From the IMG/VR virus record IMGVR_UViG_3300027704_000221, positions 1 through 20,059 of that record: 20,059 nucleotides of DNA, one strand, 5' to 3'. A model generated the notes under the pieces. The model was given only the letters and a program-made list of their open reading frames with translations. It made no database searches and was not told the DNA's origin. Positions 13,608 through 19,793 of this stretch are shown here, piece by piece; positions within the stretch are counted from its first letter, which is position 1, and each line of letters opens with the position of its first letter. The position numbers and the translations under genes are program-made. Source of the stretch: a virus.

Positions 13608-14039
13608 ATGGCGTATAGTGGAAAATTCATACCTACCAATATAACAAAATATAGGGGGGATGTCAAGAAGATTGTGTATCGTTCTTTGTGGGAGCGTAGA
13701 TTTATGGTGTATTGTGACAACACTAGTGCAATACTAGAGTGGGGCAGTGAAGAAGTTATCATACCATATATATCTCCCCTAGATGGCCGAATGCACCGAT
13801 ATTTCCCAGATTTCTATATAAAAGTCAAACAAAAAGATAAAACCATCAAAAAGATGATTATCGAAGTCAAACCAAAGATACAATGTGGCCCACCTAAACC
13901 TCCCAAACGTAAAACCAAACGGTTCATCAATGAGGTTCGTACATGGGGTGTTAATGAAGCAAAATGGAATGCAGCAATCGAATGGTGCAATGATAGAGGT
14001 ATGGAATTTAAGATACTTACTGAAGACCATGTAGGTTAA
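13608..14039 (+). CDS. 4: Head completion protein, gp4-like (PD-(D/E)XK fold)
   Basis: A 143-residue homologue of T4 gp4 (gp50/gp4, about 150 residues), needed to finish filled heads before tails attach. YRSLWERRFMVYCD at 24-37, RYFPDFYI at 64-71 and IIEVKPK at 84-90 form the E, PD and ExK pattern of the PD-(D/E)XK nuclease fold, all key residues present, so an endonuclease trimming role is plausible. The C-terminal NEAKWNAAIEWCNDRGMEFKILTED is typical for the family. AAGG lies six bases before the ATG. It heads the plus-strand tail genes and diverges from the gp48 gene. Confidence 0.85.
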   Translation: MAYSGKFIPTNITKYRGDVKKIVYRSLWERRFMVYCDNTSAILEWGSEEVIIPYISPLDGRMHRYFPDFYIKVKQKDKTIKKMIIEVKPKIQCGPPKPPKRKTKRFINEVRTWGVNEAKWNAAIEWCNDRGMEFKILTEDHVG

Positions 14040-14056: not shown

Positions 14057-14608
14057 ATGACATATTTTGACGAAATCTTAGAACGAAGTGGTGGTAATGA
14101 ACGATCAGTAAGATGGTTCAGAGATCAGATTCGTGAGTTGGGCACTCCACCCCCAAAACGACTAATCAGTGAGGGTAAAGTGAGAGCTGCACCCCTGTTT
14201 GGTAAAATGAACTTCTTTGGATATGATCCAAAACATAAGGCGACTTTACCATACTATGACAGGTTCCCCCTTATCATGCCCATTGAGGTTGCAGAAGGTG
14301 GATTTATTGGATTAAACTTCCACTACCTATCCATCCCTATGAGAGTCAAACTACTCAATGTGATATCAGAATATGCATCTGATGACAATATGAACGATAA
14401 GACAAAAATACGTTTGACATGGAATAGAGTTAAAAGAAATCCATTAGTCAAACCAACAGTAAAGAGATACCTATTCGAACATGTAAGATCGCCGTTCAGA
14501 GTGATTGATGCAGATGAAATGATGACAGCAGTGTTACTGCCTGTACAGAAGTTTGTCGGTGCGAGTGAAGGTAAAGTTTATTCAGATTCTAGAAGGATAG
14601 CAAGATGA
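14057..14608 (+). CDS. Conserved T4-like phage protein (LPYYDRFPL family), virion-associated by position
   Basis: A 183-residue protein with a very well-kept block at 51-91: NFFGYDPKHKATLPYYDRFPL then GGFIGLNFHYL, followed by IPMRVKLL. I know this block from many T4-like phages of marine and other hosts. By position next to gp4 it may be the counterpart of T4 gene 2 (DNA end protector, next to gene 4 in T4), or another virion assembly protein; I cannot choose between these by eye. Its stop overlaps the next ATG (ATGA). Only a weak AGAAG precedes the start. Confidence 0.65.
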   Translation: MTYFDEILERSGGNERSVRWFRDQIRELGTPPPKRLISEGKVRAAPLFGKMNFFGYDPKHKATLPYYDRFPLIMPIEVAEGGFIGLNFHYLSIPMRVKLLNVISEYASDDNMNDKTKIRLTWNRVKRNPLVKPTVKRYLFEHVRSPFRVIDADEMMTAVLLPVQKFVGASEGKVYSDSRRIAR

Positions 14609-15435
14609 CTGGCACAATTGAAGCATTTTCAAATACGTTTAGTAAAGGTGTTGCACGGCCCAATCTATTTACGGTAGATTTCACTAAAGCCCCAGTATCA
14701 TATAGGGGTGGTGCTGGTGGCGGCCCGCCAGGCAGTGTGCAAATGACTTCTGGCGGTAACGATGAGTTTAGTTTGCGTGTTCAGAGTGTTACAATGCCTG
14801 GCAAGAACATTACAACCACACCAAATGATAATGCATATGGGCCTTCCTATGAGATGGCGAATGGAATTAGTTTTGCAGAAGAAATTGAAGTAACATTTAT
14901 TCTTGATCAAGATCATAGAATACGAGAATTCTTTAATGATTGGCAGGACGCTGTTGTCAACCCAAGCAATTATGACTTGAATTACTATGATGACTATGTT
15001 GGGACAATGGGAATTTACCAGTTAGACCAGAACAACGAAGCAGCTTCTGCCATAGAAGTGCAAGACGTTTTTCCAAAATCAGTTGGGCCTATTTCATACA
15101 GTATGGAGTCTGGGAGTTCCTTTCAAACAGTATCAGTAAATATGGCTTTTAGAAGATGGGTTCCAATAGTTTGTAACTTCAAGGGTGAAACTGTTGCGTA
15201 TTGGTTAGATTCAGAAAAACCAAGAGTTTCAAATCCATGGCCATCACTTTTAAGTCCCTTATATAAGATTCAACAAACTTTTGGTATCGGTATACCGCCA
15301 GGAATTGAACAAGGATTAAATCAAGTGCAAGCATTTTCCAACTATGCTTCAGACCCAACAACCTTCCTAAAGAGAACTGTTGCAAGCAAAGTGAGTGGGA
15401 AACTAGGCGGATTCCTGTCTGGATTTGGGACATAA
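14605..15435 (+). CDS. Tail tube family protein, probably baseplate tube initiator (gp54-like)
   Basis: A 276-residue protein of the T4 gp19/gp54 tube family. The core runs from FSLRVQSVTMPGKNITTTPND (about 50-70) through EEIEVTFILDQDHRIREFFNDWQD (about 91-114), a YYDDYVGTMGIYQLD strand, to VFPKSVGPISYS and a closing VNMAFRRWVP strand. In T4, gp19 builds the tube and gp54 starts it on the cap. Because this gene is next to other baseplate genes and carries an extra C-terminal part (about 80 residues beyond the core, Gly-rich end), gp54 is the better guess; a true tube protein cannot be excluded. AAGGA precedes the ATG. Confidence 0.75.
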   Translation: MTGTIEAFSNTFSKGVARPNLFTVDFTKAPVSYRGGAGGGPPGSVQMTSGGNDEFSLRVQSVTMPGKNITTTPNDNAYGPSYEMANGISFAEEIEVTFILDQDHRIREFFNDWQDAVVNPSNYDLNYYDDYVGTMGIYQLDQNNEAASAIEVQDVFPKSVGPISYSMESGSSFQTVSVNMAFRRWVPIVCNFKGETVAYWLDSEKPRVSNPWPSLLSPLYKIQQTFGIGIPPGIEQGLNQVQAFSNYASDPTTFLKRTVASKVSGKLGGFLSGFGT

Positions 15436-15470: not shown

Positions 15471-16172
15471 ATGGCATTACCAAAACTGGCTACGGCTAAG
15501 TATGAATTGACACTTCCCTCAACAGGGAATAAAGTTGAATATCGACCCTTCTTGGTTAAAGAAGAGAAGATACTTTTAACTGCACAAGCAACAGGTGAAG
15601 AATCTGACATGCTACGGGCAGTAGAACAAATTATTGAGAACTGTACGTTCGGCACATTAAAAACTGGCGGACTACCCTTCTTTGATATTGAGTACGTTTT
15701 TATCAAACTGCGCTCTAAGTCTATCGGTGAGGTTGCAACAGTTAAAATATTGTGCCCTGATGATAAAGAGACTAGAGTGGAAGTTGATATTAATTTAGAT
15801 GAAGTTGAGTGTGTACGAGATGTGTCACACAATGCAGAAATCAAACTGACTGATGATGTGGGACTAACGATGGAGTATCCTCGTATAGATAGTCTTGCAA
15901 AGATTTCAAAAGTTTCGGATAGTGAAGCAGGATTTGCAATTGTAAAAGATTGTATATCGCAGATACATGATGCAGAAAATGTTTATGCAAAGAGTGACAT
16001 GGATGGAAAAGAACTTGATGAATTTATTGACTCCCTGTCACACAGTCAATTCGAAAAGATTCAAGAATTCTTTGACACTATGCCTAAAGTGAAACATGCG
16101 GTTAAAGTAAAGAATCCAAATACTGGAGTAGAGAGTGAAGTGATTGTGGAGGGTATGCAGAATTTTTTCTAA
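15471..16172 (+). CDS. 26: Tail assembly chaperone, short form (gp26/gp51-like)
   Basis: A 233-residue protein related to the T4 baseplate hub assembly family (gp26/gp51). It opens with LPKLATAKYELTLPSTGNKVEYRPFLVKEEKILL, where the 'yel.LPstgk.v.yRPFlvkEEKiLL' pattern is the family mark, and ends in a KVKNPNTGVESEVIVEGMQNFF tail. Such proteins are thought to hold the tape measure and hub during assembly, like lambda gpG. Here the last two codons before the stop are TTT TTC, preceded by T, forming a slippery run with a downstream RNA structure. A small share of ribosomes should shift to make the longer form. AGGAG lies six bases before the ATG. Confidence 0.8.
   Translation: MALPKLATAKYELTLPSTGNKVEYRPFLVKEEKILLTAQATGEESDMLRAVEQIIENCTFGTLKTGGLPFFDIEYVFIKLRSKSIGEVATVKILCPDDKETRVEVDINLDEVECVRDVSHNAEIKLTDDVGLTMEYPRIDSLAKISKVSDSEAGFAIVKDCISQIHDAENVYAKSDMDGKELDEFIDSLSHSQFEKIQEFFDTMPKVKHAVKVKNPNTGVESEVIVEGMQNFF
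16163..16169 (+). promoter_or_regulatory. Slippery heptamer T_TTT_TTC for -1 frameshifting
   Basis: In the frame of the short chaperone the bases read T TTT TTC and the next codon is the stop TAA. This fits the X_XXY_YYZ rule for -1 slippage: both tRNA-Phe can re-pair on TTT one base back. The stop codon in the A site right after the heptamer may add pausing. Confidence 0.85.
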
Positions 16173-16363
16173 TAGCCCTCTCCCACAACACACTTGAGAA
16201 CTATTTTAGACTAAACTTTACACTTATGCATCAACATAAGTATTCTTTAACTGAAATCGAAGGTATGTTACCGTGGGAGAGGGAGATTTACGTTGCCATG
16301 CTCTCACAGTACTTAGAAGATGAAGCAATGCGAGCACGACAAAATGCCGCTGATAGAAGATAA
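16169..16363 (+). CDS. -1 frame extension making the long tail chaperone (G-T type fusion)
   Basis: In the -1 frame the reading continues from CTA at 16169 for 64 codons to TAA at 16361-16363: LIALSHNTLENYFRLNF, then HKYSLTEIEGMLPWEREIYVAML and SQYLEDEAMRARQNAADRR. The 'i..mLPWEReiYv.mL..yleee' motif is that of the short second part of phage tail chaperones and of the gp51 side in T4-like phages. No start codon with a ribosome site exists in this frame: the only ATG (16226-16228) lacks one and would remove 19 residues. So it is most simply reached by frameshift, giving a 297-residue fusion spanning 15471-16363. Confidence 0.8.
   Translation, partial: LIALSHNTLENYFRLNFTLMHQHKYSLTEIEGMLPWEREIYVAMLSQYLEDEAMRARQNAADRR
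16176..16283 (+). promoter_or_regulatory. Long-range RNA stem stimulating the frameshift
   Basis: CCCTCTCCCAC (16176-16186) is perfectly complementary to GTGGGAGAGGG (16273-16283), an 11-bp GC-rich stem starting exactly six bases after the slippery heptamer. Its 86-nt loop contains a second hairpin of 7 bp (16222-16228 with 16235-16241, loop CATCAA). Spacing and strength are those of frameshift stimulators. Since the loop is large, a pseudoknot or branched fold may form. Confidence 0.75.
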
Positions 16364-16376
16364 ATAGGAGAATACT

Positions 16377-16700
16377 ATGTCTGAAGAAGTAAAGAATGTA
16401 ACGCACCCAGCAGATACTAATGGGGACGGTAAAGTTTCTAAAGAAGAACATGATATGTTCTTGGAGTTCAAACGTAAAGAACTTGAAGACAACGATGCTA
16501 TGCGAGATGCCCAGCGTCAGATGACTTGGTTTGCATTGTTTGGATTGTTGCTATATCCATTCGCAGTAGTACTTGCATCATTAGTAGGATTAGATGAAGC
16601 ACAAAAAACACTAGGTAGTATGGCACCAACATATTTTGTTGCTGTTGCTGGTATAGTTGCTGCGTTCTTTGGAACACAAGCATACTCTAAAAAGAAATAG
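16377..16700 (+). CDS. EF-hand membrane protein between chaperone and tape measure
   Basis: A 107-residue protein. Residues 13-24 (DTNGDGKVSKEE) are a textbook 12-residue EF-hand calcium loop with Asp13, Asn15, Asp17, Ser21 and Glu24 in the ligand positions. After a charged helix (KRKELEDNDAMRDAQRQ) come two membrane spans, about 51-71 (WFALFGLLLYPFAVVLASLVG) and 83-101 (APTYFVAVAGIVAAFFGTQ), and a basic end. I recall similar proteins in marine T4-like phages, always unnamed. Position next to the tape measure suggests a tail or DNA-entry function, although a holin-like role fits the two spans too. AGGAG precedes the ATG. Confidence 0.75.
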   Translation: MSEEVKNVTHPADTNGDGKVSKEEHDMFLEFKRKELEDNDAMRDAQRQMTWFALFGLLLYPFAVVLASLVGLDEAQKTLGSMAPTYFVAVAGIVAAFFGTQAYSKKK

Positions 16701-16709
16701 GTAAAGTAA

Positions 16710-19700
16710 ATGGCTGATACTGTAAACGAATCCTTAGTTAAAGTAACTGAAGAACTGAAGGAAGCAAATCAACGCTCACTTGAAGCGTCTAAGGAACTTG
16801 GAAAAGTTACTGCGGCATCTAAATCGGGCGCATCTTCTATTGGAAGTGCAGTCAAAGAGGCGGTTGGACTAGATAAACTTGAATCAACGATTATGAGTTT
16901 GCCTGGCATGAATGTTGCTAAGGCAATTAAAGATGCTATCTTCAAGAAAAAAGCACGAATCAGAGATGAAAAGAATCTTGCTAAGCGTTTAGGTATCACC
17001 AGAGAACAACTAGTTTTCCAAGTAAAAGAACAAGAACTTCTTCAAGCACGAGAGAACGAATCAAAGGTTTTGATTGAAGCTGCTGAGAAACTAGGTTTTA
17101 ATACAGATAGAATTGCCAGAGTAAATGAAGACGGCAATGCAGAATTAAACGGTACACTTAGAGAGTCTAATGGACAGTTTGTTTCGAGAGCAAATGCAAG
17201 TGCAGACGCTAACCTTGCTGCATTAAAAGACTTTTCTGGAAATCAAGAAAAAACTCTTTCAGAAGGTATTGGAAGTATGGTATCAGCACCGTCTGTTGAC
17301 GGTGGCCCAAGTGGTGCATCTCTATCAGAGGATGCTGGAGAAGACAGAAGAGTAACACAAGCAACCCTTAATGAATCTGAAAAACAGACTTCGTTGTTAC
17401 AACAAATTGTTGATGGCATTCTAGATGGCAATGATTCAGCTGAAGAGAGTGGTGGTGGATTACTGAGTAAAATGGGCAATTTACGTTTGGCCATGATGGG
17501 TGTGGGAGCAACTGTTGGCGGATTTGCTGCGAGAGCTCTAACTAAAGTTAAAGGTGTTGGTGGTAAAATTGCTGGCGGCGTACGAGCAGCTGGTAGGGGT
17601 GTTGCAAAAGGCGCTGGTGCAGTTGCAAAAGGCGCTGGTGCAGTTGCAAAAGGCGCTGGTGGTATTGCAAAAGTTGCTGGAAAAGGATTACTCCGTGGAG
17701 CAGCAGGCGCTGCCAAATTTATCCCTGGCATTGGACTTGCAGTGACCGCTGCAATGGGTATCTTTGATGGTATGTCTGCTGGTATTGAAGAGTATAAGAA
17801 GTCTGGTAAATTAGGTGCGGCAGTTAAAGAAGGTATCGCTGGTGCGGCATCTGGATTAACATTCGGACTTGTATCACAAGAATCTATTTCTGCTGGTATG
17901 GATAAGATTGGTACATTTTTCTCTGATGGTTGGACTTCATTTACAAGTGGTGTAGGTAAAATTGCTGGTGGTATTGCTGATTTTGCAAAAGACCCACTAG
18001 GAACACTGTCTGAAGTTGGTACTGCACTGTCTACAAAATTTAGTGAAACCGTAACGTCAATTAAAGATGGGGCATCTGCACTAAACACTAAGTTCGCAGA
18101 CTTGACAGGTATTGATGTTGGGGCAGGATTTGCAGCAACCGCTGGACTAATTAAGTCTGGTGCTGCAGCACTTGGTACTAAATTCACTGAACTGACAGGT
18201 ATTACTATACCAACAGATTTCGCTAGTCTAAAGACAGGAATCATTACTGGTGCTACAGCACTTGGTACTAAGTTTACAGAACTTACAGGCATCACAATCC
18301 CTACAGACTTCGCTAGTCTAAAGACAAGTATTGTTACTGGTGCTGCAGCACTTGGTACTAAGTTTACAGAACTTACAGGCATTGACATTGGCGCATCACT
18401 TACTGGTGCAAAGGACAAGATACTTGGTCTGGGAACAAAGGTTGCAGATGGATTTAATGGACTATTTGGTGAGGAAGGATTCAGTGTTGCTGGTGTCAAG
18501 ACTGCAATCTCTGGTATAGCAGGTGCTGTCTCAGGTAAGTTTACCGAATTAACTGGTGTCAATTTACCATCATTCGCATCTATTACAACTGGTATAGCAG
18601 GAATTGGTACTGCTGTTGCAACTGGACTTGGTTCATTGGGTGTTCCTACCTTTGCAGAAGTCACTGGTAAGATGTCAGGAATCGGTACTTCTATTGCTAC
18701 TGGACTAGGTGCATTATCTATCCCTACATTCAGTGAAGCTGGTTCTGCAATGTCAGGACTTGCTGAAGGTTTGGGTAATAAAATTAGTGGAATGTGGGAT
18801 AGTGTTACAAGTCTATTTTCATCTGCTGATAAGAAACAGTCAGATATTGATAAGATGAATGCACTTGATGAATCAAAAGAATCTGGATTATATACAACTA
18901 GACGTGGCAGAGATAATCTTTTAGATCAATCAAAAATATCTGAAGCATCAGATGTACAACTTCAAGCAATCCTTGATGATACAAAAGGTACTTCCGTTGG
19001 TGGTACAAATGATATGAGTAGTGAGAACATTGCTGCATTAGAAGAGGAACTTGCGGCTCGAAAGATTAACACAGAACTTAAAGTTGAGACTAATAAAGTT
19101 GAATCTAAGGGAACAGAACTTAAAGTTGAGACTAATAAAGTTGAATCTGATGCACTAAAGGTTAAAGTATTTGGTAAAGAGTACACGAAAGAAGAACTCA
19201 TCCAAGCGAGAAAAGATGGTACAGTTAAGAGAAGTATAGCAACCTCTAAAATAAGAGAACTAGACATGATGGAGAAGAGGGAACAGATGAATGAAGCTGA
19301 TGTTACCTCTGGAACATTTGTACAAGGTAAACTCGTAACTCCACCTGAGTCTACTCATAAAATGACTGATGGTTCTATAATGAAAGATTCTGATATGAAA
19401 GGTTCATCCTCCCCACTAGGTATGGGTTCTGAGTCAATCACTAATTCTGTTGTAAACTCAGCAGCTACTGCAAATGCAACTACTAGTAACTTGACGTATA
19501 TTCCTTCTAAATTAGATACCACTAATAATATTAGTAGTAATAGTGTATCTACTAATGATATGCCTGCTGGTGCAGTAATGCAGGCAGATACAGTTATGAT
19601 AAACACACAAAAAACTGTTGCATTAAGAGAACAGGGACTTGATACTCAACAGGCGGTTGCAATGGCACCTATGATATTCCAATCAAAGTCTAGTAGTAAT

Positions 19701-19793
19701 GTGACTAATAATGTCAGTACTACTAAACCTATGATGATGCCAGTACCAGTATCTAATACAGGTGATGGTGGGTTTAACTTCTCAAACGGTTAA
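16710..19793 (+). CDS. Tape measure protein (gp29-like role)
   Basis: The largest gene in the window, 1027 residues. It starts with a coiled-coil part (VKVTEELKEANQRSLEASKELG and a long helical region to about 165), then has Gly/Ala-rich hydrophobic stretches with VAKGAGA repeats (about 298-318), a span-like IPGIGLAVTAAMGIF (about 338-352), a long repeated ALGTKFTELTGI array (about 440-670), and a low-complexity C-terminus ending NTGDGGFNFSNG. Tape measures fix tail length and thread into the host membrane at infection. It follows the chaperone as in other phages and is larger than T4 gp29 (about 590). No sequence likeness to T4 gp29 is visible by eye, so the call rests on position and composition. 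Confidence 0.8.
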   Translation: MADTVNESLVKVTEELKEANQRSLEASKELGKVTAASKSGASSIGSAVKEAVGLDKLESTIMSLPGMNVAKAIKDAIFKKKARIRDEKNLAKRLGITREQLVFQVKEQELLQARENESKVLIEAAEKLGFNTDRIARVNEDGNAELNGTLRESNGQFVSRANASADANLAALKDFSGNQEKTLSEGIGSMVSAPSVDGGPSGASLSEDAGEDRRVTQATLNESEKQTSLLQQIVDGILDGNDSAEESGGGLLSKMGNLRLAMMGVGATVGGFAARALTKVKGVGGKIAGGVRAAGRGVAKGAGAVAKGAGAVAKGAGGIAKVAGKGLLRGAAGAAKFIPGIGLAVTAAMGIFDGMSAGIEEYKKSGKLGAAVKEGIAGAASGLTFGLVSQESISAGMDKIGTFFSDGWTSFTSGVGKIAGGIADFAKDPLGTLSEVGTALSTKFSETVTSIKDGASALNTKFADLTGIDVGAGFAATAGLIKSGAAALGTKFTELTGITIPTDFASLKTGIITGATALGTKFTELTGITIPTDFASLKTSIVTGAAALGTKFTELTGIDIGASLTGAKDKILGLGTKVADGFNGLFGEEGFSVAGVKTAISGIAGAVSGKFTELTGVNLPSFASITTGIAGIGTAVATGLGSLGVPTFAEVTGKMSGIGTSIATGLGALSIPTFSEAGSAMSGLAEGLGNKISGMWDSVTSLFSSADKKQSDIDKMNALDESKESGLYTTRRGRDNLLDQSKISEASDVQLQAILDDTKGTSVGGTNDMSSENIAALEEELAARKINTELKVETNKVESKGTELKVETNKVESDALKVKVFGKEYTKEELIQARKDGTVKRSIATSKIRELDMMEKREQMNEADVTSGTFVQGKLVTPPESTHKMTDGSIMKDSDMKGSSSPLGMGSESITNSVVNSAATANATTSNLTYIPSKLDTTNNISSNSVSTNDMPAGAVMQADTVMINTQKTVALREQGLDTQQAVAMAPMIFQSKSSSNVTNNVSTTKPMMMPVPVSNTGDGGFNFSNG
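17601..17663 (+). repeat. 21-bp tandem repeat, three copies, in the tape measure gene
   Basis: Copies at 17601-17621, 17622-17642 and 17643-17663; the first two are identical and the third differs in its last bases. Each encodes VAKGAGA (third VAKGAGG). Near-identical bases show recent duplication rather than protein selection alone. Confidence 0.9.
18168..18400 (+). repeat. 90-bp tandem repeat in the tape measure gene
   Basis: Units start at 18168, 18258 and 18348 (the last is partial) and encode ALGTKFTELTGITIPTDFAS plus ten more residues, a 30-residue period. Weaker copies of the TKFxELTG core are seen earlier (near 18030 and 18080) and later (near 18535). This is the kind of repeat that changes tail length in steps. 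Confidence 0.85.
19071..19148 (+). repeat. 42-bp direct repeat in the tape measure gene
   Basis: Two identical 36-base blocks at 19071-19106 and 19113-19148, six bases apart, each encoding TELKVETNKVES. A recent in-frame duplication. Confidence 0.9.

Follow-up and report, generated by a model that had tools for sequence, protein, structure and literature searches.

Programmed frameshifting in tail assembly chaperone genes has long been known (PMC5009743). The T4-like locus described here resembles lambda G/GT in that a single locus, shortly ahead of the tape measure gene, would yield a short form and a form extended in the −1 frame. It differs from lambda in its conserved Shine-Dalgarno (SD)-like and stem elements, and no sequence kinship to lambda is claimed; lambda G/GT also uses a different slippery heptamer. 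The Vandenendeviridae and Andersonviridae, which are other phage families, have a chaperone frameshift at GTTTTT, and neither an SD element nor a covariation-tested stem is reported in the accessible text of that account (PMC12846349). The E. coli dnaX signal has an 11-bp hairpin after a 5-nt spacer (PMC8861025), and its internal SD and hairpin act together (PMC5600365). With an SD-like element upstream, a heptamer and a stem, the phage site is built like that of dnaX: both have an internal upstream SD, a heptamer of the X_XXX_XXY type, a short spacer (5 nt in dnaX, 6 nt here) and a hairpin of similar length (11 bp in dnaX, 10–11 bp here). The upstream SD distance in dnaX is about 10 nt. The two sites differ in that dnaX, a host gene, has A_AAA_AAG and makes a shorter product, while the phage gene has T_TTT_TTC, a longer predicted protein and an 86-nt structured loop.

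In the T4-like phages themselves, Vladimirov, Gautam and Davidson 2022 (Virology 566:9) reportedly identified the chaperones, in a paper whose title is said to propose a mechanism other than frameshifting. As summarized in PMC10885494, that study describes some T4-like phages as having one short gene and one fused long gene; in PMC12846349 it is the reference given for slip sites of the poly-T kind in T4-like chaperone genes. Frameshifting may thus well be on record already for some of these genes. A full-text literature search, whose reach did not extend to Vladimirov et al. 2022, found no description of gp26/gp51 frameshifting in cyanophages, and the literature searched holds no description of stimulators of a T4-like chaperone frameshift. 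Stimulator elements specific to clades are thus new as far as the literature was searched.

The window is a 20,059-nt stretch of viral DNA (positions 1 to 20,059 of IMGVR_UViG_3300027704_000221) from a marine relative of phage T4, and the gp26-like gene, its signal elements, its extension and the probable tape measure gene all lie on the plus strand. The gp26-like gene (15471–16172) encodes the N-terminal (G) part of the tail assembly chaperone, a zero-frame product of 233 aa with profile matches to PF12322 T4_baseplate (1.7e-66) and, over residues 1–233, to phrog_150 (3.3e-71). It ends in the codons AAT TTT TTC TAA, so that the candidate slippery heptamer T_TTT_TTC (16163–16169) is in phase and is followed directly by the zero-frame stop TAA (16170–16172). 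A spacer of 6 nt (16170–16175) separates the heptamer from the 5′ arm of a stem (16176–16186). The −1 frame extension, the gp51-like T part, runs from 16169 to 16363 and consists of 64 codons (LIALSH...AADRR) plus a stop at 16361–16363, with the next ORF starting at 16377. Its profile matches are phrog_634 (5.5e-27), the gp51 family ‘baseplate hub assembly catalyst’, and, at 2.3e-5, 46 positions at the C-terminal end of phrog_150. The sequence-only reading had proposed this arrangement, and each element that it listed stands where it placed it: the heptamer, the TAA, the 6-nt spacer, the 11-bp stem with its 86-nt loop and inner hairpin, and the 64-codon −1 frame. From its sequence, the locus can be taken with high confidence to be a tail assembly chaperone gene whose reading involves a programmed −1 ribosomal frameshift. 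The feature is real and conserved, and it is very probably functional.

The chaperone locus sits between the tail tube gene (14605–15435; phrog_45, 2.5e-42) and the probable tape measure gene (16710–19793, 1027 aa). The product of the latter has a family match to an unnamed PHROG only; its position, its length and the annotation ‘putative tail tape measure’ of the gene at the corresponding place in HTVC008M suggest that it is the tape measure protein and would be the client of the chaperone. One small ORF (16377–16700) intervenes. It encodes 107 aa with an EF-hand-like calcium-binding loop (DTNGDGKVSKEE) and hydrophobic stretches, and its match to EF-hand_5 in Pfam (4.4e-4) is below the cut-off; Melnitz and HTVC008M each have an ORF of similar size at this place, and that of HTVC008M shows the HPADTNGDGK start. 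The head closure (gp4-like) protein encoded at 13608–14039 also matches a TnsA-like endonuclease N-terminal domain (Pfam, 3.6e-23).

The sequence anatomy, conservation, covariation and codon bias of the signal are direct observations. Four viral-contig scans together with phage records supplied 189 loci in which the end of gp26 could be read, and the gp51 part was located automatically in 181 of them. The gp51-like part (phrog_634) is in the −1 frame of gp26 in 179 of these 181 loci and in frame 0 in the other two. An in-phase T_TTT_TT(C/T/A) is found near the gp26 end in 177 of the 179 −1 loci, as TTTTTTC in 162, TTTTTTT in 13 and TTTTTTA in 2. The extensions are mostly 59–68 codons long, with an unbroken frame; an intact −1 frame in relatives was a test set beforehand, and both it and the conserved heptamer bear out what the sequence-only reading expected. 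Within the ORFs of the window, T_TTT_TTC occurs in phase only once in 5,703 scanned codons. The differences between the window’s extension and those of close relatives fall mostly at third codon positions of the −1 frame, a pattern that fits translation of this frame. Inspection by eye shows this junction in KVP40, LPCS28, Bhz51 and V45v66, and also in phiM7 and Ah1, and the same arrangement is present in Melnitz, Mosig, S-H9-2, P-SSM4, HTVC008M and P-HM2.

The few exceptions have individual features. Both frame-0 loci (L009 and L113) are one contig, in which the heptamer lacks two bases and the fusion is encoded in frame. On this 236-kb IMG/VR contig, the 2-nt loss relative to the 92%-identical L114 lies at about locus position 2705–2720, and the in-frame fusion without a short form reflects natural mutation or else a mistake of assembly. 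Two −1 loci were scored without the heptamer: the gp26 call of L101 stops early, which leaves its junction unread, and L036 has TGTTTTC, against TTTTTTC in the closely related L020. CBA120 (Ackermannviridae, L087) and Vibrio phage D531 (L095) have a T-like part in the −1 frame without T_TTT_TTN; the slip sites at the 3′ ends of their gp26 genes, ATTTTC and CTTTTC, resemble weaker −1 sites. In the records of P-HM2 (L196), S-CAM4 (L193), ACG-2014b (L192) and Ah1 (L195), gp51 is truncated or unannotated (93 bases in P-HM2), and no joined CDS is annotated in these four.

The sequence-only reading listed the heptamer, the spacer and the stem correctly and missed an element upstream of them, the SD-like GGAGGG at 16148–16153, inside gp26 and 9 nt before the heptamer. 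It lies at a conserved Glu-Gly, whose Glu is five codons before the slip codon. Among 131 dereplicated loci, this Glu is encoded by GAG in 97 of 105 cases, as against 29.8 expected from each gene’s own usage (z=15), while Glu-Gly elsewhere in the same genes has GAA 29 times and GAG 7 times. The mean pairing energy with the anti-SD at the element is −7.4 kcal/mol, stronger than anywhere else in the 150 nt leading up to the slip site, over which the mean is about zero. In 105 of the 131 loci, 8–9 nt lie between the end of the purine core and the heptamer. The window’s own element has full strength, at −9.8 kcal/mol. A strong element is present in 97% of the cyanophage-like relatives and in about 60% of the window’s class, so about 40% of that class is without one. 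By analogy with dnaX, where SD and hairpin cooperate, GGAGGG would be an upstream stimulator of the frameshift.

Downstream of the spacer, a perfect 11-bp stem (CCCTCTCCCAC/GTGGGAGAGGG) is formed between the 5′ arm, read in the −1 frame as part of ALSH, and the 3′ arm (16273–16283), which encodes part of PWERE, and closes 86 nt. When the −1 frame was re-coded synonymously 3,000 times, an 11-bp stem of Watson-Crick pairs with its start close to this distance never arose; with G-U pairs allowed, 1.8% of the re-codings reach 11 bp. The predicted local fold of the window is 6.6 SD more stable than the synonymous re-codings, and the pair probability of the stem is 0.8–1.0 in longer sequence contexts. 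The class of the window consists of 40 relatives with the LSH motif; this boundary, like that of the other class below, is an amino-acid motif set after inspection of the data. Members of the class form a mean of 9.3 of the 11 pairs, which is above synonymous re-coding (z=10.5) and above swaps of arms between relatives (z=5.2). An independent count found 84.5% of the cells paired and a covariation score reached by none of 500 shuffles, which ignore relatedness. Since the innermost pair (16186–16273) is not conserved, the 11-bp stem of the sequence-only reading is present in the window, while about 10 bp of it is kept in the class. The inner 7-bp hairpin (16222–16241), which that reading had included in the structure, is likewise present in the window and has all seven pairs in only 2 of the 40 members; it was rejected as a part of the signal and is probably incidental.

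Could the frameshift be real and the far stem of the window be incidental, arising only from the ALSH and PWERE motifs? Both arms do lie in conserved codons, changes on both sides are seen in only 3 of the 11 pairs, which is within the range of the shuffles, and RNAalifold on all 40 members predicts no structure; it gives the stem in 24 members with at least 10 pairs, a subset picked for that stem. Because of the RNAalifold result on the full class, pair counts, arm swaps, synonymous re-coding and APC-corrected mutual information were relied upon, and these speak for the stem. In the 40 relatives, APC-corrected mutual information puts the pair 16180–16279 first of 7,381 column pairs, with about four independent C-G/T-A switches, and 16177–16282 ranks 47th; both pairs join third-codon (wobble) positions of the −1 frame. 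The covariation of paired bases anticipated by the sequence-only reading is thus found. Together with the excess over synonymous re-coding and the lack of a Watson-Crick equivalent in re-codings of the window, it makes an incidental stem unlikely. A search of Rfam gave no matching family for the structure.

A conserved stem in the same position is not limited to the window’s class. In 71 relatives, Met replaces the Leu of LSH, and a different, local hairpin of 10 bp is found, also 6 nt after the heptamer; it is the form in most of the cyanophage-like relatives. Its pairing exceeds that of arm swaps (z=9.5) and of synonymous re-coding (z=20.6), alignment columns 15 and 29 rank first of 7,381 with about nine independent switches, and 89.7% of its cells are paired in 38 of the 71. 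By score, no relative has both structures. The 17 relatives in neither motif class were folded individually. These comparisons make it reasonably probable that the T4-like chaperone gene carries a dnaX-like cassette of three parts, common to marine, Aeromonas, Vibrio and other T4-like lineages, in which two alternative RNA structures with the same 5′ arm position have changed places as the downstream stimulator. The need for pairing would then have shaped the encoded residues, SMAH with LESY or LASY in one structure and ALSH with the PWERE codons in the other, while T4 uses two separate genes.

If no frameshift takes place, gp51 could be a separate small protein with its own start, perhaps coupled to the gp26 stop, and the overlap would reflect tight packing. 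Several records do annotate a CDS of its own (L001:3781–3924, P-SSM4, MA10 and P-RSM6, for example), and an ATG is the sixth gp51-frame codon from the heptamer in 58 of 131 relatives. However, 52 of the 131 loci, the window included, have no ATG, GTG or TTG in the first 10 codons from the slip site. Neither is such a codon found in any of the 131 loci in the open −1 frame up to 36 nt upstream, in keeping with the earlier expectation that the second part would not always carry its own start and ribosome site. The first −1-frame ATG in the window’s extension (16226) is preceded by no purine-rich sequence, and a start there would leave out 19 conserved residues; where the early ATG is present, the conserved GAGG is more than 20 nt before it. 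A separate gp51 also leaves the conserved heptamer, the constant 6-nt spacing and the constancy of frame unexplained, so it is a very improbable account of the locus, even though a secondary internal start is possible in the 58 loci where an ATG soon follows the slip site at that one position. Least probable of all is a fusion made by RNA polymerase slipping on the T run, for which there are six T's and the ability of a downstream structure to act on the polymerase too, but of 173 loci, 161 have a run of exactly six T's and no more, slippage on T runs normally requires longer runs, and the in-phase heptamer and the ribosome-specific, fixed-spacing SD-like element point to ribosomes.

The relation of a ribosomal frameshift product to the T4 proteins can be read from the profile matches. 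T4 gp51 (249 aa) matches positions 13–280 of phrog_150, which is nearly the whole G+T profile, while T4 gp26 matches positions 14–235 only. For this reason the frameshift product would correspond to T4 gp51 and the unshifted product to gp26, two members of the same protein family, gp26 being the short form and gp51 the full-length G+T form. The product described by the sequence-only reading as a gp26-gp51-type fusion should thus be read as a long form equivalent to T4 gp51; its frameshift is supported, but gp51 is not a mere second half. T4 has two genes, 26 and 51, on opposite strands, where the window has one gene with a predicted frameshift. A tree built to see if T4 gp26 and gp51 stem from a duplication was unresolved, with long branches meeting, and no evolutionary direction is drawn from it.

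From these features we infer the occurrence and efficiency of slippage, the roles of the SD-like element and the stem, and the chaperone function. For most ribosomes, translation would end at the TAA at 16170 with the 233-aa short form, gp26. A minority would pause on T_TTT_TTC, held by pairing of GGAGGG with the anti-SD of 16S rRNA and by the stem 6 nt after the heptamer, and slip back one base, the P-site TTT and A-site TTC tRNAs re-pairing with TTT TTT. The shifted ribosomes would then read on to 16363 and make a 297-aa fusion with the gp51-like T part at its end. On the model of lambda G/GT, the short form may coat the tape measure protein and the rare fusion may recruit the tube protein. 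An AlphaFold2 model of the in-frame fusion L113 has a pLDDT of 87.8. Its strong fold matches are predicted viral proteins only, many of them named gp26 or baseplate hub, and sequence and fold searches of the PDB gave nothing significant, with the HK97 chaperone 2ob9 at E=4.2.

For the main marine T4-like phages, the signal offers a testable mechanism by which both chaperone forms would be made, beside the separate genes of T4. What cyanophage records list as small ‘gp51’ genes probably encodes C-terminal extensions and not proteins of their own. With more than 100 natural frameshift signals and two downstream structures for one slip site, the family would be useful for probing what a stimulator needs.
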